From Amycolatopsis granulosa (GTDB lineage Bacteria; Actinomycetota; Actinomycetes; Mycobacteriales; Pseudonocardiaceae): a stretch of 64,000 bases of DNA. Location: NCBI RefSeq assembly GCF_011758745.1, contig NZ_JAANOV010000001.1, positions 4,898,001 to 4,962,000 on the forward strand. Direction: 5' to 3'. Under the pieces are notes generated by a model. That model was not told where the DNA came from, did not search any database, and saw only the letters and a program-made list of their open reading frames with translations. Below are positions 18,501 to 40,021 of the stretch, in pieces (positions within the stretch are counted from its first letter, which is position 1; every line of letters starts with the position of its first letter). Both the position numbers and the translations under genes were made by a program.

Positions 18501-20159
18501 CCCGGCGAGGGCGGCCAGCTGCCGCCGAACAAGGTGTACCCGTGGATCGCGCGCACCCGGCACTCCACGCCGGGGGTCGGCCTCATCTCGCCGCCGCCGC
18601 ACCACGACATCTACTCGATCGAGGACCTGGCGCAGCTGATCCACGACCTGAAGAACGCCAACGAGCAGGCCCGCATCCACGTGAAGCTCGTCAGCTCGCT
18701 CGGCGTCGGCACCGTCGCCGCGGGTGTGTCCAAGGCGCACGCGGACGTGGTGCTGATCTCCGGTCACGACGGCGGTACCGGCGCCTCGCCGCTGAATTCG
18801 CTCAAGCACGCGGGCACGCCGTGGGAGATCGGCCTGGCCGAGACCCAGCAGACCCTGATGCTCAACGGCCTGCGCGACCGCATCACCGTGCAGGTCGATG
18901 GTGCCATGAAGACCGGCCGGGACGTCGTGGTCGCGGCGCTGCTCGGCGCCGAGGAGTACGGCTTCGCGACCGCGCCGCTCATCGTCGCGGGCTGCATCAT
19001 GATGCGGGTCTGCCACCTGGACACCTGCCCGGTGGGCGTGGCGACGCAGAACCCGGACCTGCGCAAGCGGTACACCGGGCAGGCCGAGCACGTGGTGAAC
19101 TACTTCCGGTTCGTCGCGCAGGAGGTCCGCGAGCTGCTGGCCGAACTGGGCTTCCGCACCCTGGACGAGGCGATCGGCCGGGCCGACGTGCTGGACACCG
19201 ACGAGGCCGTGCACCACTGGAAGGCTTCCGGGCTGGACCTGACGCCGATCTTCGAGATGCCTGCCGACACCCCGTACGGCGGGGCACGGCGCAAGATCCG
19301 CGAGCAGGACCACGGCCTCGAGCACGCGCTGGACCGTACGCTGATCCAGCTGTCCGAGGCGGCGCTGGAGGACGCCCACCCGGTCCGGCTCGAACTGCCG
19401 GTGCGCAACGTCAACCGCACGGTCGGCACGCTGCTGGGCTCGGAGATCACCCGTCGCTACGGCGGGGAGGGCCTGCCCGACGGCACCATCCACATCCGGC
19501 TCACCGGATCGGCGGGACAGTCCCTGGGCGCGTTCCTGCCCCGGGGTGTCACGCTGGAGATGGTCGGGGACGCCAACGACTACGTGGGCAAGGGCCTGTC
19601 CGGCGGGCGCATCATCGTGCGCCCCGACCCGGACGCGACGTTCGCCGCCGAACGTCAGGTCATCGCCGGCAACACGCTGGCCTACGGTGCGACCGCGGGG
19701 GAGATGTTCCTGCGCGGCCAGGTGGGCGAGCGGTTCTGCGTACGCAACTCGGGCGCCACCGTCGTCGCCGAGGGCGTGGGCGACCACGCCTTCGAATACA
19801 TGACCGGCGGCCGCGCGGTGGTGCTCGGCCCGACCGGACGCAACCTCGCCGCGGGCATGTCCGGCGGCATCGGCTACGTCCTCGACCTCGACCAGGGCAA
19901 CGTCAACGGCGAGATGGTCGAGCTGCTCCCGCTGGAGCCCGAGGATCTGAACTGGTTGAAGGACATCGTGACCCGTCACCACGAACTCACCCGCTCGGCG
20001 GTCGCCGCGTCGCTGCTCGGCGACTGGCCGCGCCGCTCGGCGAGCTTCACCAAGGTGATGCCGCGCGACTACAAGCGCGTGCTGGAGGCGACCAAGGCCG
20101 CCAAGGCCGCGGGGCGGGACGTCGACGAGGCGATCATGGAGGTGGCGTCCCGTGGCTGA
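15573..20159 (+). CDS. gltB: Glutamate synthase (NADPH) large subunit GltB
   Basis: 1528 aa. Transfers the glutamine amide to 2-oxoglutarate. Order of domains: class II glutaminase with the nucleophile in [15 protein letters not shown] (Cys22, so a propeptide of 21 residues is removed), central domain, FMN-binding TIM barrel ([53 protein letters not shown]), the 3Fe-4S cysteines in [20 protein letters not shown], and the C-terminal beta-helix GXGXG domain. A strong ribosome site GGAGGT lies 7 nt before the ATG. It overlaps gltD by 8 nt. No convincing GlnR box was found upstream. Confidence 0.98.
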
Positions 20160-21660
20160 CCCGAAGGGCTTCCTGAAGTACGAGCGGGTCGAGCCGCCCA
20201 AGCGCCCCAAGGCGCACCGCGCCGAGGACTGGCGGGAGGTCTACGCCGACCTCGAACCGGCCGAGCGCGACCAGCAGGTGCGCACACAGGCGACCCGCTG
20301 CATGGACTGCGGCATCCCGTTCTGCCACTCCGCGGGTTCCGGCTGCCCCCTGGGCAACCTGATCCCGGAGTGGAACGACCTGGTGCGCCGCGGCGACTGG
20401 GCCGCGGCGAGCGACCGGCTGCACGCGACCAACAACTTCCCGGAGTTCACCGGGAAGCTGTGCCCGGCGCCCTGCGAGGCCGGCTGCACCCTGTCCATCT
20501 CGCCGCTGTCCGGCGGTCCGGTCGCGATCAAGCGCGTCGAGGCGACGATCGCGGAGAAGTCGTGGGAGCTGGGCCTGGCCCAGCCGCAGGTCGCCGAGGT
20601 GGCCAGCGGTCAGCGGGTGGCCGTGGTCGGGTCCGGCCCGGCCGGGCTGGCCGCCGCCCAGCAGCTCACCCGCGCCGGGCACGACGTGACGGTGTTCGAG
20701 CGGGACGACCGGCTGGGCGGGCTGCTGCGCTACGGCATTCCCGAGTTCAAGATGGAGAAGAAGCACCTCGACCAGCGCCTGGCCCAGCTCAAGAAGGAGG
20801 GCACGCAGTTCGTCACCGGCTGCGAGGTCGGTGTCGACATCACCGTCGAGGAGCTGCGGGCGCGCTACGACGCGGTCGTGCTCGCGGTCGGCGCGCTGCG
20901 CGGCCGGGACGACACCACCACGGCGGGACGGGAGCTCGCGGGCATCCACCTGGCGATGGAGCACCTGGTGCCGGCCAACAAGCAGTGCGAGGGCGACGGG
21001 CCGTCGCCGGTCCACGCGCACGGCAAGCACGTCGTGATCATCGGCGGTGGGGACACCGGTGCCGACTCCTACGGCACCGCGATCCGTCAGGGCGCGGCGT
21101 CGGTCACCCAGCTGGACCAGTACCCGATGCCCCCGTCGACCCGCGACGACGACCGGTCGCCGTGGCCGACCTGGCCGTACGTGCTGCGCACCTACCCCGC
21201 GCACGAGGAGGGCGGCGAGCGGAAGTTCGGCGTCGCCGTGCGGCGCTTCGTGGGCGACGAGAACGGGCACGTCCGCGCGATCGAGCTGCAGCAGGTCAAG
21301 GTCGTGAAGGACCCGGAGACCGGGCGTCGCGAGGTGGTGCCGGTCTCCGACGAGATCGAGGAGATCCCGGCCGACCTGGTGCTGTTCGCGATCGGGTTCG
21401 AGGGCGTGGAGCACATGCGGCTGCTCGACGACCTGGGCATCTCGCTGACCCGCCGGGGCACCATCTCGTGTGGTCCGGACTGGCAGACGGAGGCCCCCGG
21501 CGTGTTCGTCTGCGGCGACGCGCACCGCGGCGCGTCCCTGGTGGTGTGGGCGATCGCGGAGGGCCGCTCGGTGGCCCACGCCGTGGACGCCTACCTGACG
21601 GGCGCGTCCGACCTGCCGGCACCGGTCCACCCGACCGCGCTGCCCCTCGCAGTGGTCTGA
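20152..21660 (+). CDS. gltD: Glutamate synthase small subunit GltD
   Basis: 502 aa flavoprotein that takes electrons from NADPH and passes them through 4Fe-4S clusters to GltB. N-terminal cluster cysteines are in [20 protein letters not shown] and CPAPCEAGC. The FAD site is [22 protein letters not shown] (about residue 155), the NADPH site [14 protein letters not shown] (about residue 295), and the C-terminal FAD contact is [23 protein letters not shown]. The GTG start overlaps the gltB end, so the two are made in balance. Directly downstream lies a 21-bp repeat array. Confidence 0.98.
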
Positions 21661-21680
21661 ACCGCCCGGCCGCCCCAGAG

Positions 21681-21871
21681 CGGCGAACACGCCGCCCGGG
21701 CCGGTGAACACGCCGCCCGGAGCGGTGAACACGCCCGCGGCGCCGTGTTCACCGCTTGAGGCGCCGTGTTCGCCGCTGGGGTCGTCGTGTTCACCGCTTG
21801 AGGCGCCGTGTTCGCCGCTGGGGTCGTCGTGTCGGCTGCTTTGGGGCGCCGTGTTGGCTGCTGGGGGCGGG
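21681..21871. repeat. 21-bp phased intergenic repeat array with central inversion (locus 1)
   Basis: Between gltD and the DAHP synthase gene. The pentamer AACAC recurs at 21686, 21707 and 21728 (exact 21-bp steps, unit core AACACGCCGCCCGGA); then the units flip and GTGTT/GTGTC recurs at 21745, 21766, 21787, 21808, 21829 and 21851 (21-bp steps, the last 22). At the flip, AGCGGTGAACACG (21721-21733) and CGTGTTCACCGCT (21744-21756) make a perfect 13-bp hairpin with a 10-nt loop. In the right half a 40-nt stretch (21751-21790) is repeated exactly at 21793-21832. The gap 21872-21984 contains the aroG promoter. Confidence 0.9.
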
Positions 21872-21936
21872 CGGGCCCGGACGCCCGGGGGCGGGCGGAG
21901 TGGGTGCAGCCGCCGCTGCGCGCCGCGGGAGGGTGA

Positions 21937-23396
<1,460 letters not shown>

Positions 23397-32792: not shown

Positions 32793-33455
32793 ATGCGTGC
32801 GATTTACCGAACACTCGACCGTCGCCTGATGCGCGACGTGGCGCTGGTGGCGCTGGCGGACGGCGTCGTCGGCGTGTCCTACGGCGCCATCAGCACCGGA
32901 TCCGGGTTCGGCGCGTGGCTCCCGGTGGTGATGTCGTTGCTGGTGTTCGCCGGGGCCGCCCAGTTCCTGTTCGTCGGGCTGGTGGCCGCCGGGGGCAGCC
33001 CGTTCGCGGCGGCGGTCGCCGGTCTGCTGGTCAACAGCAGGCTCCTGCCGTTCGGCATGGCGGTCAGCGATGTGCTCCGCGGCCGGGGACGCGTGCTCGG
33101 CAGCCACCTCCTGACCGACGAGGACGTCGCCTTCGCCCTCGCCCAGGAGGATCCGGGGCGCCGCCGCACGGCGTACTGGGCGTGCGGTGTCTGCATCTTC
33201 GTGTGCTGGAACCTCGGCGTGGTGGTCGGCGCCTTCGCGGGCACCGTCATCGGTGACACCGACGCGTTCGGCCTGGACGCCGCGTTCCCCGCCGTGCTGC
33301 TCGCACTGGTGCTGCCGTCGCTGCGAGACAGCCGGACCCGGCGGGCCGCGCTGGCCGGAGCGGTGGTCGCGCTCGCCGTGACGCCGTTCCTGCCCGCGGG
33401 TCTGCCGGTGCTGCTCGCGCTCACCGGGGTGCTCGTGCTGGTGGTGCGCCGATGA
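32793..33455 (+). CDS. azlC: Branched-chain amino acid exporter large subunit AzlC
   Basis: 220 aa membrane protein of the AzlC/BrnF family. Core motif VALADGVVGVSYGAISTGSGFGAWLPVVMSLLVFAGAAQFLFVGLVAAGG is clear, followed by LLVNSRLLPFGMAVSDVL and further helices to residue 220. With AzlD it forms an amino-acid (typically branched-chain) exporter. It overlaps azlD by 4 nt. The divergent XRE-cupin gene is the probable regulator. Confidence 0.95.
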   Translation: MRAIYRTLDRRLMRDVALVALADGVVGVSYGAISTGSGFGAWLPVVMSLLVFAGAAQFLFVGLVAAGGSPFAAAVAGLLVNSRLLPFGMAVSDVLRGRGRVLGSHLLTDEDVAFALAQEDPGRRRTAYWACGVCIFVCWNLGVVVGAFAGTVIGDTDAFGLDAAFPAVLLALVLPSLRDSRTRRAALAGAVVALAVTPFLPAGLPVLLALTGVLVLVVRR

Positions 33456-33763
33456 CCATCCTGATCGGGATCGCGGTGCTCGCGGTCGGCACCTTCGCGT
33501 TCCGGATCGCCGGGCCGGCATTGCAGGCCCGGATCCAGATCCCGCCCAAGGTGCAGAACCTGATGGCGATCGCGGCGGCCGTCCTGCTGGTCGCCGTCGT
33601 GGCGACGCAGGCACTGACCCAGGGCCACTCGTTCGCCGGGTTCGCCCGTCCGGCCGGTGTCGCGGTCGGCGGCGTCCTGGCCTGGCGGAAGGCGCCGTTC
33701 CTGGTGGTGGTCGTCGTCGCCGCCGCGGTCACCGCGCTGCTGCGCCTGGCCGGCGTGCCCTGA
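33452..33763 (+). CDS. azlD: Branched-chain amino acid exporter small subunit AzlD
   Basis: 103 aa with four short membrane helices; VLAVGTFAFRIAGPALQ is the family N-terminus and VQNLMAIAAAVLLVAVVATQALTQ the second conserved stretch. The ATG overlaps the azlC stop. Downstream lies a 437-bp gap with repeats. Confidence 0.93.
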   Translation: MTILIGIAVLAVGTFAFRIAGPALQARIQIPPKVQNLMAIAAAVLLVAVVATQALTQGHSFAGFARPAGVAVGGVLAWRKAPFLVVVVVAAAVTALLRLAGVP

Positions 33764-33886: not shown

Positions 33887-33979
33887 CGCCAACACGTGGC
33901 CCGGAGGGGCAAACACACCGCCCGGACGGGCGAACACGAAGATGCGGCGTGTTTGCTGCTGCGGGTGGCGTGTTTGCCG
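33887..33979. repeat. 21-bp phased intergenic repeat array with central inversion (locus 2)
   Basis: AACAC occurs at 33891, 33912 and 33933, and after an inversion GTGTT occurs at 33949 and 33970: all steps on each side are exactly 21 bp. The units follow the same consensus as locus 1 (AACACACCGCCCGGA beside GGGCG). GGCAAACAC on the left pairs with GTGTTTGCC on the right, so the array can form a nested hairpin. It lies between azlD and the convergent LysR gene; apart from the 15-bp duplication I see nothing else in 33764-34200. Confidence 0.85.
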
Positions 33980-34200: not shown

Positions 34201-35049
34201 CTAGCCGTGCAGGCGGCCGGCCTCGGCGCGGATCGCCTCGGACAGCGCGGCCGTCGGACCGGTCGCCGTGCGCGTGCTCAGCTGGAACTGCACCTCGCCC
34301 GGATCGGGCAGTCCGTGGCCGGGCGGCAGCTCCGCCAGCCCGGCCGGCACCAGGCTGCGGGCGAACACCGCGACCCCCAGCCCGGCCAGCGCCGCCGCGC
34401 GCAGACCGTTCAGGCTGCCGCTCGTGCACACGATCCGCCACGGCTTCCCGTTGCCGCGCAACGCCTCCAGTGCCCTCGCGCGGGTGATGCTGGGCGGTGG
34501 GTAGGCGATCAGCGGCACCGGCCGGCCCGGCTCCGGGGTGAAGCCCTCGCGGCCGACCCACACCAGCGGGTCGGTCCACAACGGACTGCCCGTCTCGTCG
34601 CCCGCGCGTTTCTTGCCCAGCACCAGGTCCAGCTCGCCCGCGCGCAGTTTCTCGTACAGCACACCGGACAGGTCCACGGTCAGCTCGAGGTCCACCAGCG
34701 GGTGCAGCCGCCGGAACTCGCGCAGGATCTCGGGCAGCGGCCCGACCACGAAGTCCTCCGACGCGCCGAACCGCACCCGGCCGCGTAGTTCCGGCCCGGT
34801 GAAGTAGGCCAGCGCCCGCTCGATGTCCGCCAGGATCGTCCCGGCGAACCCGATCATCGCCTCGCCGTCCGGGGTGAGCTCGACCGAGTGGGTGTCGCGC
34901 AGCAGGAGCTGCTGCGCGGTCGCGTCCTCGAGCTTGCGCACGTGCTGGCTCACCGTCGACTGCCGCAGCCCCAGTCGCTGGGCGGCGCGCGTGAAGCTGC
35001 GGGTCTCGGCCACGGTGAGGAACGTCCGCAGCCACACGGGATCCAGCAC
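34201..35049 (-). CDS. LysR-family transcriptional regulator
   Basis: 282 aa. N-terminal winged HTH VWLRTFLTVAETRSFTRAAQRLGLRQSTVSQHVRKLEDATAQQLLLRDTHSVELTPDGEAM, then a substrate-binding domain (LRGRVRFGASEDFVVGPLPEILREFRRLHP; LDLVLGKKRAG). The GTG at 35049 is preferred to an upstream ATG because GGAGGT stands 4-5 nt before it. It is divergent from an SBF-type transporter gene and has an ATCGCG-TTT-CGCGAT box just upstream of its ribosome site. LysR proteins usually act on the divergent neighbour. Confidence 0.93.
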   Translation of the reverse strand: MLDPVWLRTFLTVAETRSFTRAAQRLGLRQSTVSQHVRKLEDATAQQLLLRDTHSVELTPDGEAMIGFAGTILADIERALAYFTGPELRGRVRFGASEDFVVGPLPEILREFRRLHPLVDLELTVDLSGVLYEKLRAGELDLVLGKKRAGDETGSPLWTDPLVWVGREGFTPEPGRPVPLIAYPPPSITRARALEALRGNGKPWRIVCTSGSLNGLRAAALAGLGVAVFARSLVPAGLAELPPGHGLPDPGEVQFQLSTRTATGPTAALSEAIRAEAGRLHG

Positions 35050-37114: not shown

Positions 37115-38776
37115 ATGGGCGTGCACCAGATCTGTGACCAGTTCGTCGAGGACTTCGCCGCCGCGCACCCGGTCGCGGCGACCGAGCTGGGCATCCCCGG
37201 CTACGACGACCAGCTGACCGACTACTCGCCGGAAGGTCACGCCGCCCGCGCCGCCCTGGCCCGGCGGGCCCTGGCCGCGGTCTCGGCCGCGGATCCGGCC
37301 GACGCCGGTGAGCGCGCCGCGAAGGCGGTCTTCACCGAGCGGGTCGGGCTGGACCTGGAGATCCACGAGGCCGGCCTGGACATCGCGTCGCTCAACGTCA
37401 TCGCCAGCCCGGTGCAGGACCTGCGCATGGTGTTCGACCTCATGCCCGCCGACACGCCCGGGCAGTGGTCGGTGATCGCGCAGCGCCTGGCGAAGGTGCC
37501 GCAGGCGGTGGACGGCATCCGAGCCTCCCTGCTCGCCGCCGTCGAGGCGGGCAACCCGCCCGCGCTGCGCCAGGTCACCAAGGTGGCCGAGCAGGCCGAG
37601 ACCTGGGCCGGGCTGTCCGGGGAAACCGGGTTCTTCGCCAACCTCGTCGCCGGGGCGCCGCAGGGCACCGTGCGCGCCGATCTCGACCGCGGGGCCCGGG
37701 CCGCCCAGGAGGCGTACGCCGAACTGGCCGGGTTCCTCCGCGCCGAGCTCGCGCCGAAGGCCCGTGTGAAGGACGCCGTCGGCGAGGACGCCTACCGGTT
37801 GTGGTCGCGGTACTTCATCGGTGCGCGGCTCGACCCGCGCGAGTCCTACGAATGGGGCTGGGCGGAGTTCCTGCGGCTGGAAGCCGAGATGAAGGCCGTC
37901 GCCGAGCGCATCGCCCCGGGCGGCACGCTCGCCGGCTCCGCCGCCGCGCTGGACGCGAACCCGCGCTACCAGGTGCAGGGCCGTGACGCCTTCGCGCGGT
38001 GGATGCAGGAGCTGTCCGACACCGCGCTCGCCGAGCTGCGCGGCAAGCACTTCGACATCCCGGACCCGCTGATGGCGCTGGAGTGCCGGATCGCCCCGCC
38101 GGGCGGGGGCGCCGGCGCGTACTACACCGGCCCGAGCGAGGACTTCACCCGTCCCGGCCGGATGTGGTGGTCGCTGCCGCCGGGCCGCGACGAGTTCACC
38201 ACCTGGCGGGAGGTCAGCACCGTTTACCACGAGGGCGTGCCCGGGCACCACCTGCAGATCGCGACCGCCGTGCACGAGCGGTCGCTGAACCGGTTCCAGC
38301 GGCTGATGGCCTTCACCTCCGGCCACGCCGAGGGCTGGGCCCTCTACGCCGAGCGGTTGATGCAGGACCTCGGGTACCTCGCGGACGACGGCGACCTGCT
38401 CGGCATGCTCTCCGAGCAGCTGTTCCGCGCCGCGCGGGTGATCGTCGACTTCGGGATGCACCTCGAACTGGAGATCCCGGCGGGCACCGGGTTCCACGAG
38501 GGCGAGCAGTGGACGCCCGAGCTGGGCCTGGAATTCATGCTCACCCGCACGATCACCGACGAGCCGCTGGTGCGCGACGAGATCAACCGCTACCTCGGAT
38601 GGCCCGGGCAGGCTCCGGCGTACAAGCTGGGGGAGCGGCTGTGGATCGAGGCACGCGAGGACGCCCGCAAGCGCCAGGGTGACCGCTTCGACCTGAAGGA
38701 CTTCCACACGAAGGCACTCCGCCTCGGCGGCATGGGCCTGGACACGCTGCGCGAGCAGCTGGCCGAACTGGACTGA
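37115..38776 (+). CDS. DUF885 protein, putative metal-dependent carboxypeptidase-like
   Basis: 553 aa. DUF885 proteins resemble M32-type zinc peptidases. The metal motif YHEGVPGHHLQIA (HExxxHH variant, about residue 372) is followed by SGHAEGWALYAERLMQDLGYL with the third ligand and then the C-terminal EFMLTRTITDEPLVRDEINRYLGWPGQAPAYKLGERLW. Length is normal and there is no signal peptide, so it acts in the cytoplasm; the substrate is unknown. TAGGTT ends 6 nt before the ATG. It lies 30 bp after metF. Confidence 0.9.
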   Translation: MGVHQICDQFVEDFAAAHPVAATELGIPGYDDQLTDYSPEGHAARAALARRALAAVSAADPADAGERAAKAVFTERVGLDLEIHEAGLDIASLNVIASPVQDLRMVFDLMPADTPGQWSVIAQRLAKVPQAVDGIRASLLAAVEAGNPPALRQVTKVAEQAETWAGLSGETGFFANLVAGAPQGTVRADLDRGARAAQEAYAELAGFLRAELAPKARVKDAVGEDAYRLWSRYFIGARLDPRESYEWGWAEFLRLEAEMKAVAERIAPGGTLAGSAAALDANPRYQVQGRDAFARWMQELSDTALAELRGKHFDIPDPLMALECRIAPPGGGAGAYYTGPSEDFTRPGRMWWSLPPGRDEFTTWREVSTVYHEGVPGHHLQIATAVHERSLNRFQRLMAFTSGHAEGWALYAERLMQDLGYLADDGDLLGMLSEQLFRAARVIVDFGMHLELEIPAGTGFHEGEQWTPELGLEFMLTRTITDEPLVRDEINRYLGWPGQAPAYKLGERLWIEAREDARKRQGDRFDLKDFHTKALRLGGMGLDTLREQLAELD

Positions 38777-38900: not shown

Positions 38901-38986
38901 GGCCGGCGTGTTCGCCACTCCGGGCAGCGTGTTCGCCGTTCCGGTCGGCGTGTTGGCCATTCCGGTCGGCGTGCTGGCCCGTCCGG
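38901..38986. repeat. 21-bp phased intergenic repeat array (locus 3)
   Basis: Four tandem units with GTGTTCGCC/GTGTTGGCC/GTGCTGGCC at 38908, 38929, 38950 and 38971, exactly 21 bp apart. On the minus strand the units give the same AACACGCCGxCCGGA core as loci 1 and 2. Only one orientation is present here. The rest of the gap 38846-39127 is GC-rich without further recognisable features. Confidence 0.88.
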
Positions 38987-39127: not shown

Positions 39128-40021
39128 ATGTCTGTTTCCCTCGACGCGCGCGCGCGTACCCGATCGACTCTCACGCTTCTGCTCGCCGGTCTCCTGTGGG
39201 GCACCGGCGGCCTTTCCGGGTCGCTGCTCGCCGCCCGCGCCGGGCTGCACCCGATTTCCGTTGCCACATACCGGTTGCTGGTCGGCGGTGCGGTGGTCGT
39301 GCTGTTCCTCGCGCTGACCGGCGGCCTCCGCGGAACGGTCTGGACCAGGGCGGTCGTCCGCCGGATCGCGGTCGCCGGCGGGCTGCTCGGCTCGTTCCAG
39401 GCGACCTACTTCGCCGCGGTCGGGCTGTCCTCGGTCGGCACCGCGACCATGGTGACCATCGGCAGTGTGCCGGTGTTCGTCACGGTCGCCCTGGCGATCC
39501 GGTCCCGCCACCTGCCGCGGCCGGCGACCCTGTTGTCGGTCGCCCTCGCGCTGGCCGGACTGGTGCTCCTGTCCGCCGGTCCCGGCCACTCCGGCTGGCG
39601 GCTGGCCGCCGGCGTCGCGTTCGCCCTGCTCGCGGGGGCCGGGTTCGCCACACTGACGTTGGTCCTGCGCCGCCCGGTCGTGGGCCTGGACCACCAGCGC
39701 ACCACGGCGTTCGGCTTGCTGGCCGGTGGCGTCCTGCTCCTGCCCGCGGCGCTGGTCCTCGGCATGGCGCTGCCGTTGCGGATCGACGTCCTCGCCGTCG
39801 CGCTCTACTTCGGCGTCGTGCCGACCGGGCTGGGCTACGCGGCCTACTTCCGGGTCCTCGGCGCCGCGCACCCGGTCGTCGCGGCGCTCGCGACGCTACT
39901 GGAACCGCTGACCGCCGCGATCCTGTCCGCGGTCGTGCTGCACGAGGACCTCGGCGTCCAGGGCTGGTGCGGCGCCGCGCTGCTGGCGACCGGCCTGCTG
40001 GTGGGCTACCTGCGGTCCTGA
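39128..40021 (+). CDS. EamA/RhaT-family (DMT) transporter
   Basis: 297 aa with ten predicted helices in two EamA repeats. Family landmarks: TLTLLLAGLLWGTGGLSGSLLA, LGSFQATYFAAVGLSSVGTATMVTIGSVPVFVTVALAI, and VPTGLGYAAYFRVLGAAHPVVAALATLLEPLTAAILSAVVLHEDLGVQGWCGAALLATGLLVGY. The second ATG is preferred because GGAG lies 10 nt upstream. Substrate unknown (metabolite or drug export). The 3' end overlaps the convergent GNAT gene by 16 nt. Confidence 0.92.
   Translation: MSVSLDARARTRSTLTLLLAGLLWGTGGLSGSLLAARAGLHPISVATYRLLVGGAVVVLFLALTGGLRGTVWTRAVVRRIAVAGGLLGSFQATYFAAVGLSSVGTATMVTIGSVPVFVTVALAIRSRHLPRPATLLSVALALAGLVLLSAGPGHSGWRLAAGVAFALLAGAGFATLTLVLRRPVVGLDHQRTTAFGLLAGGVLLLPAALVLGMALPLRIDVLAVALYFGVVPTGLGYAAYFRVLGAAHPVVAALATLLEPLTAAILSAVVLHEDLGVQGWCGAALLATGLLVGYLRS

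Follow-up and report, generated by a model that had tools for sequence, protein, structure and literature searches.

The arrays in the window and their neighbors

The gap between a gltD-like gene and a class-II DAHP synthase gene contains an array of short, phased repeat units, and two smaller arrays of the same kind occur farther along the window (the whole stretch of DNA analyzed, 64,000 nucleotides, at positions 4,898,001-4,962,000 of a genome that is a single contig of 5.62 Mb). The arrays and the genes around them are as follows.

20152..21660, plus strand: gltD-like gene (Fer4_20, Pyr_redox_2); stop codon 25 bp ahead of the first core of array 1
21669..21871, no strand: array 1, nine units of ~21 bp (three minus, then six plus), in the gap between gltD and the class-II DAHP synthase gene
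21721..21756, no strand: flip of array 1, a perfect 13-bp inverted repeat (21721-21733 with 21744-21756); core-to-core distance 17
21985..23379, plus strand: class-II DAHP synthase gene; start 129 bp beyond the last core of array 1
33452..33763, plus strand: AzlD-family gene, left of array 2; stop codon 127 bp off
33891..33974, no strand: array 2, five units (three minus, then two plus), between convergent genes; core-to-core distance 16 at the flip
34201..35049, minus strand: LysR-family regulator gene, right of array 2, convergent; 3' end 226 bp off
37115..38776, plus strand: DUF885 gene, left of array 3; stop codon 131 bp off
38908..38975, plus strand: array 3, four one-way units (all plus), final core GTGCT, between co-directional genes
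39293..40021, plus strand: EamA transporter gene, right of array 3; 317 bp off

Array 1 has AACAC cores at 21686, 21707 and 21728, followed by cores in the GTGTT orientation at 21745, 21766, 21787, 21808, 21829 (where the unit reads GTGTC) and 21851. Successive steps are 21, 21, 17 (the flip), 21, 21, 21, 21 and 22 bp. An earlier note on this DNA had described nine units at 21-bp phasing with a 13-bp hairpin at the flip, and both descriptions are accurate, the pairing being perfect over all 13 bp. Tandem Repeats Finder independently returned a period of 21 for array 1 and for the loci at 33.9 kb and 38.9 kb. The 15-mer AACACGCCGCCCGGA, with up to two mismatches allowed, has nine matches in the window against 0.66 expected, and none of 100 shuffles reaches nine; the exact 15-mer occurs only at 21707, and there are one or two mismatches in the 33.9- and 38.9-kb copies. 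The recurrence of the core at those two loci, also part of the earlier description, reflects real arrays. All three window loci are intergenic, as had been claimed; only array 2 lies between convergent genes, and array 1 has co-directional genes on both sides.

A genome-wide family at gene ends

Confinement of the 21-bp repeats to these three places is not what was found: GTGTT-N16-GTGTT has 126 matches in the 5.62-Mb genome, and the reversed pattern has one. Scans of this genome and its relatives for the 21-nt unit reveal a genome-wide repeat family that is common to other genera of the same bacterial family. Arrays were found with a weight matrix built from the units, at a cut-off of a summed score of at least 30, in a contiguous 524-kb stretch (from the window on to 5,422,000) and in 37 regions centered on listed matches. 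Since the regions were drawn from 100 listed matches of the 126, the array total is at least 54; among the matches listed, 12 arrays are in the unbiased 524-kb stretch (two share one gap) and 42 are elsewhere. Another 14 of the 100 listed matches, unlike array units, lay outside the regions used for the array count; three of these were viewed with 1.5 kb on either side, and one is within a called gene and two are outside. Throughout, genes were called with a simple model of codon usage made for this analysis and are not curated annotation.

The unit consensus from 320 sites is GTGTT, any base, GCCG, then about CTCCGGGCGGC. The core is GTGTTnGCC, usually followed by G, with a freer linker, and three of the core letters are T, though the DNA is only 14% T. 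GTGTT and GCC exceed most linker positions in conservation, and this includes phase-only units, which were taken at the 21-bp phase from one anchor. In such units the commonest base of GTGTT and GCC reaches 0.70-0.83 here (151 units) and 0.64-0.79 in a sister species, G307 (121 units), and the remaining positions 0.40-0.74 and 0.40-0.72, so the ranges for core and linker overlap. Core conservation is also partly circular, because the core served to find the arrays, and GTGTT and CC were set in advance by the pattern used across genera. The spacing is strict in this genome: among the matches listed, 162 of the 181 same-strand steps in the 54 arrays are 21 bp, with 5 of 20 bp and 7 of 22 bp. Both orientations occur in 35 of the 54 arrays, and 19 are one-way. 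Inversions run from AACAC to GTGTT in 34 cases, 30 of them with a core distance of 16-20, and in the opposite direction in 3.

Where do the arrays lie? Among the matches listed, none of the 54 is in a called gene; 26 are in convergent, 26 in co-directional and 2 in divergent gaps. For the 12 arrays of the unbiased 524-kb stretch the numbers are 6, 6 and 0. Units equally common within genes, an outcome that the earlier note had considered, are thus not seen for strong arrays (0/54). Twelve weak clusters scored between 18 and 29 and so missed the cut-off; seven come from the 524-kb stretch and five from elsewhere, all are within called genes, and two consist of a pair at a 21-bp step. When 54 arrays were placed at random in the gaps between genes of the 524-kb stretch, 1000 times over, the expectation was 13.8 in divergent gaps (never fewer than 5) and 14.3 in convergent ones (never more than 24). 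The nearest stop codon was then at a median of 239 bp (never below 76), against an observed median of 23 bp. The distance is at most 50 bp for 40 of 52 arrays, and in co-directional gaps the array is nearer the 3' end of the upstream gene in 22 of 26 cases (binomial p = 0.0005). Some roomy convergent gaps have an array hugging one stop codon (39/855, -4/372, 15/385 and 387/14 bp); two convergent gaps do not fit this pattern (204/198 and 127/226 bp).

The space left over in convergent gaps is 59 bp in 25 gaps with an array and 61 bp in 59 array-free gaps larger than 0 (p = 0.81); in co-directional gaps it is 208 bp in 25 gaps with an array and 140 bp in 109 without. Because array-bearing convergent gaps have the residual space of an ordinary gap, the arrays look like added DNA, and the equality tells against a simple replacement of terminators. 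More generally, the idea that arrays replace ordinary gap content is unsupported.

Possible recognition sites on the DNA

There is evidence in support of three explanations for the arrays. In the first, they would be dispersed, BIME-like repeats in which DNA recognition sites recur in phase where transcription units end, marking boundaries via a putative oligomeric protein. We hold this reading tentatively, as a real possibility that falls somewhat short of probable. The repeating 21-bp unit would be the recognition site, with its conserved core and freer linker; units would be multiplied in tandem, often with a single inversion, and arrays would persist mostly just past stop codons. With a spacing of two turns, all cores would point to the same side of the DNA, toward the putative protein; the earlier note had likewise suggested a multimeric protein-binding array. 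A bound array would most likely mark or insulate the end of a transcription unit by blocking read-through or by maintaining a topological boundary, and would do so chiefly where genes converge.

Recognition of DNA would explain the phasing, the indifference to orientation, the shared core and the placement at gene ends. It is supported by the 126 matches against one, the gene-end placement, the exact steps, the conservation of the core and the presence of the same core in other genera. One-way arrays do not fold beyond shuffles, nor do they clearly prefer one sense relative to the transcript (12 against 6 among 18), which favors recognition of DNA over recognition of RNA; a consistent RNA sense of one-way arrays was considered and set aside, the 12 to 6 split not being decisive. 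Further support comes from arrays that have stayed in place between species: 6 of 20 loci in two other members of the genus are matched here, and a pair of one-way arrays has kept its orientation in three species (see below). Several observations stand against recognition sites. Most arrays (35/54) are two-way and fold well; the residual gaps are ordinary; core conservation has the circularity and the overlapping ranges described above; 9 of 16 genus members have 0-3 exact matches; and one array appears to have been lost relative to G307 while a separate terminator-like hairpin was kept in both genomes. The claim of a 21-bp spacing also stood for this genome and not for a member of another genus, G418, where 21 and 22 bp are mixed (90 and 125 of 215 steps); exact two-turn spacing is therefore not universal, and this too counts against DNA recognition sites.

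Turnover within the genus

A second explanation is that the arrays are a selfish or neutral satellite that expands by slippage, is occasionally copied, and lies behind stop codons because insertions into genes and promoters are purged, with no function for the host. We consider this somewhat unlikely. Its best support is the rapid change in unit number. Of 25 long blocks aligned between the window's genome and the sister species G307, 23 are at 94-97.5%, and yet G307 has 577 pattern matches against 126 here. The 400 kb covered in G307 contain 12 arrays, 7 in convergent gaps and 5 in co-directional ones, with none divergent and none in called genes; 11 of the 12 match an array here by alignment coordinates, with seven pairs viewed directly. 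At matching places the G307 arrays are often longer (e.g., 20 units vs 5), so unit number is hypervariable at shared places. The end units, judged by eye in pairs from the two genomes, look degenerate, and this, like the ordinary residual gaps, suits a satellite. At the site of a G307-only array (2,023,891; here about 5,057,005), the window's genome has a 14-bp remnant of a unit, which looks like loss of an array rather than an empty target; the separate terminator-like hairpin kept in both genomes is at this site.

The patchy distribution of the repeats in the genus and the bacterial family is also consistent with a satellite. Across 19 genus genomes, GTGTT-N16-GTGTT counts range from about 20 up to 402 (G304), 450 (G303) and 577 (G307), the lowest being near the control counts of some genomes; the 0-3 matches in 9 of 16 sampled members were obtained with a stricter exact pattern. 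The reversed control TTGTG-N16-TTGTG is enriched in G310 (17+31) and G316 (14+11), where it may represent another 21-bp repeat family.

The long life of some loci argues against a satellite without function. In 20 regions of G304 and G308 there are 22 arrays, one of them in a called gene (L257), and the window's genome has an array at the orthologous place for 6 of the 20 loci, five matched by both neighbors or by a double array and one (L242) by one neighbor. The pair of one-way arrays with unchanged orientation lies at the two ends of one convergent gap in the window's genome, G304 and G308. The short distance to the stop codon (median 23 bp), retained even in some roomy convergent gaps (204/198 and 127/226 excepted), likewise does not sit easily with a satellite. 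At L101 (2,483,593-2,484,012 in the window's genome), L247 and L250, a convergent gene pair has a one-way array at each gene end with other DNA enclosed. The enclosed DNA is ~0.3 kb here and ~1.0 kb in G304 and G308, and in G308 the gene model calls a gene within it.

Arrays in other genera

The pattern GTGTTNNCC-N12-GTGTTNNCC was searched in 249 genomes of the bacterial family and is in clear excess over controls in single members: 69 matches in g208; 30, 109 and 44 in g215 (two others 0 and 2); 13 and 25 in g202 (two others 0 and 1); and few, 9 and 3, in g214. Arrays were seen at 14 of the 16 loci viewed in genera other than the window's, G322 excepted from this inspection; L176 and L177 are not arrays. 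The sequence GTGTTCACCGCGATCGTGTTCGTGTTGACC (L176 and similar) recurs in several genomes in an apparent transposase gene and is part of the pattern background. The arrays of other genera have the same core and other linkers, and the core also appears in neighboring units outside the pair that the pattern fixed. This retention of the core while linkers change is a further point against a selfish satellite. A named scan gave eight loci in Amycolatopsis acidicola, Amycolatopsis sp. GM8 and Crossiella sp. S99.2, with clusters in 6 convergent, 1 co-directional and 1 open setting and none in called genes. Farther afield, 111 genomes of the order were scanned, and the 98 outside the bacterial family all have 0-2 matches; for a pattern closer to the window's genus, 296 genomes of the phylum yielded 7 with matches, a single one in each except the window's genome, exact patterns being of a kind that would miss divergent relatives.

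In G418, a member of g215, which is probably Crossiella, 40 regions chosen among 100 listed of its 109 matches contain 46 arrays, none of them within a called gene: 23 are convergent, 15 are co-directional and 2 are divergent, and 6 lack a called neighbor on one side. Flips are 30-31 bp in 39 of 41 cases. One sub-type has 29 copies that are 93-94% identical over 30 nt at the ends, and identity falls to 30%, the background level, in the flanks 25-45 bp outside the copies. Near-identical ends with background flanks indicate that these copies have been dispersed, as expected of a satellite. No convincing shared locus with the window's genome was found among the 46 G418 arrays. On the 10.06-Mb contig G418:C1, the first match is at 1.96 Mb, leaving none in the first fifth (among the matches listed, which extend up to 8.78 Mb).

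Folding and possible transcription termination

The third explanation is that the arrays are bidirectional terminators, or hairpins that protect mRNA 3' ends, whose inverted arms fold in both transcripts and whose units are hairpin building blocks. We find this rather doubtful. Nested hairpins with such roles had been proposed in the earlier note, and the folding is there in one part of the repeat family: the 35 two-orientation arrays fold beyond dinucleotide shuffles (median z -2.7; -3.2 for the region of array 1), whereas the 19 one-way arrays show no such excess (median z -0.52, with single ones below -2). Since one third of the arrays have no inversion and fold like shuffles, the hairpin is common, yet it is the phased DNA unit that all arrays share.

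Where a flip is present, the likeness to a terminator is considerable. Arrays with an AACAC-to-GTGTT flip, mostly at the narrow core distances noted above, have a median of -27 kcal/mol for their best 46-nt window, close to the -25 of the strongest hairpins at 3' ends that lack an array. Hairpin clusters near stop codons have been described in 13 bacteria, and about 90% of predicted terminator hairpins in the 13 genomes are within 50 bases of the stop codon (PMC8355165), the distance at which most arrays are found. Both stop codons are within 60 bp of the array in 17 of 26 convergent cases here and 17 of 23 in G418, as would suit a bidirectional device. On the other side, the arms do not covary across the flip: in 38 flips from this genome and G307, they are no more alike than shuffled pairs (permutation p = 0.95). 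The array that adjoins a separate terminator-like hairpin also fits poorly. Nor are the arrays U-tract intrinsic terminators of the classical type, a GC-rich hairpin followed by a U-run: none of 31 downstream 30-mers contains TTTT, and there is no terminator-like site in 21600-22000. Within 100 nt, TTTT occurs at 3 of 60 3' ends that have an array and at 13 of 172 that have none, and because array-free ends mostly do without it too, its absence is no argument against a hairpin terminator. Terminators lacking the U-tract have been described in Streptomyces clavuligerus (PMC8269248). As far as such terminators of GC-rich bacteria are covered in the cited texts (PMC8269248, PMC8355165), flipped arrays resemble them in having a hairpin without a U-tract a few tens of bases past the stop codon, and the arrays differ in their repeated 21-bp units, with one third giving no hairpin signal.

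Replacement of conventional hairpins by arrays was rejected. Hairpins outside the array are weaker at array-bearing 3' ends (median -5.9, n=72) than at array-free ends (-25.2, n=174), mostly for lack of room, 36 of the 72 having fewer than 60 unmasked bases; in length-matched bins the comparison is mixed (-16/-20, -20/-26, -25/-23 and -25/-27, array-bearing vs array-free). Rfam 15 gave no match above the gathering score in the window, L101, L247 or L250.

Possible functions and significance

What could follow from these readings of the arrays? First, they might constitute a new class of chromosomal site, helically phased arrays read by a dedicated oligomeric protein of this actinobacterial family and acting as a transcription or supercoiling boundary tuned by unit number; this more specific proposal is, in our estimate, unlikely. 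Second, if the arrays are bound and active at gene ends, they would be a previously unseen transcription-ending or insulating device of GC-rich actinobacteria, with unit number as a built-in dial that differs between sister species. Third, even if the arrays are selfish, a satellite that survives mostly a few tens of base pairs from stop codons is a testable problem in genome evolution, and a core kept across genera without a REP-type transposase in the genus is part of the same puzzle.

Relation to known repeat systems

The arrays are not a CRISPR, as the earlier note had stated: the units are related, contiguous and in both orientations, and there are no identical repeats with unique spacers of constant length. 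That note knew of no named family with these properties, and a literature search, whose scope took in few subscription journals, likewise found no description of one.

The closest comparison is with REPs, palindromes of 20-40 bp tagged GTAG or CGTC that occur downstream of genes, often in opposite orientation; RAYT transposases accompany GTAG REPs, and CGTC REPs have no dedicated transposase (PMC3733652). Like REPs and BIMEs as characterized in that source, the arrays are short, dispersed, intergenic repeats downstream of genes in convergent or co-directional gaps, rarely divergent (2/54 here, 0/12 in G307, 2/46 in G418), and opposite-orientation units are present in 35 of the 54 arrays here. 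Unlike them, the arrays run head to tail at a constant 21-bp step. Neither GTAG nor CGTC is in the 320-site consensus (CGTC is in some single units, e.g., in array 1), and a palindromic stem-loop unit of 20-40 bp was not found, a lone unit showing no folding beyond shuffles and the 19 one-way arrays folding like shuffles. The Y1 (RAYT-type) transposase, PF01797, is in one of 19 genus members (G306, which has 0 matches to the stricter pattern) and in neither the array-rich members nor the window's genome. Among seven genomes of other genera, three have PF01797, the G418 copy with an internal stop; the DNA around these other-genus matches contains no array and one isolated core-like site (L260). 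REP/RAYT membership is therefore rejected for want of a tag, a folding unit and a transposase in the genus, though the CGTC class has no dedicated one either. That no mobilizing enzyme was found also weighs against a selfish satellite. MITEs are characterized by sharp ends bearing terminal inverted repeats and by near-identical copies scattered through a genome; the 29 G418 copies have sharp ends, array ends in the window's genome are 64% identical, and a partner transposase was not found.

Tandem repeats are documented in GC-rich actinobacteria, and the arrays share this trait with the 23 satellites that a survey of prokaryotic satellites reports in Amycolatopsis mediterranei (PMC6749651); its text has no place with "21 bp" or "21 bases", and the parts drawn on here describe no gene-end family.

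Units head to tail, differing in number between the window's genome and G307 at one place, also give the arrays the defining trait of VNTRs. Bacterial VNTRs and MIRU-type minisatellites are tandem units in intergenic DNA whose number varies between close relatives, and in this the arrays are alike. They differ in forming one core family at dozens of loci, with arms often inverted, at gene 3' ends, and with a core that extends across genera.
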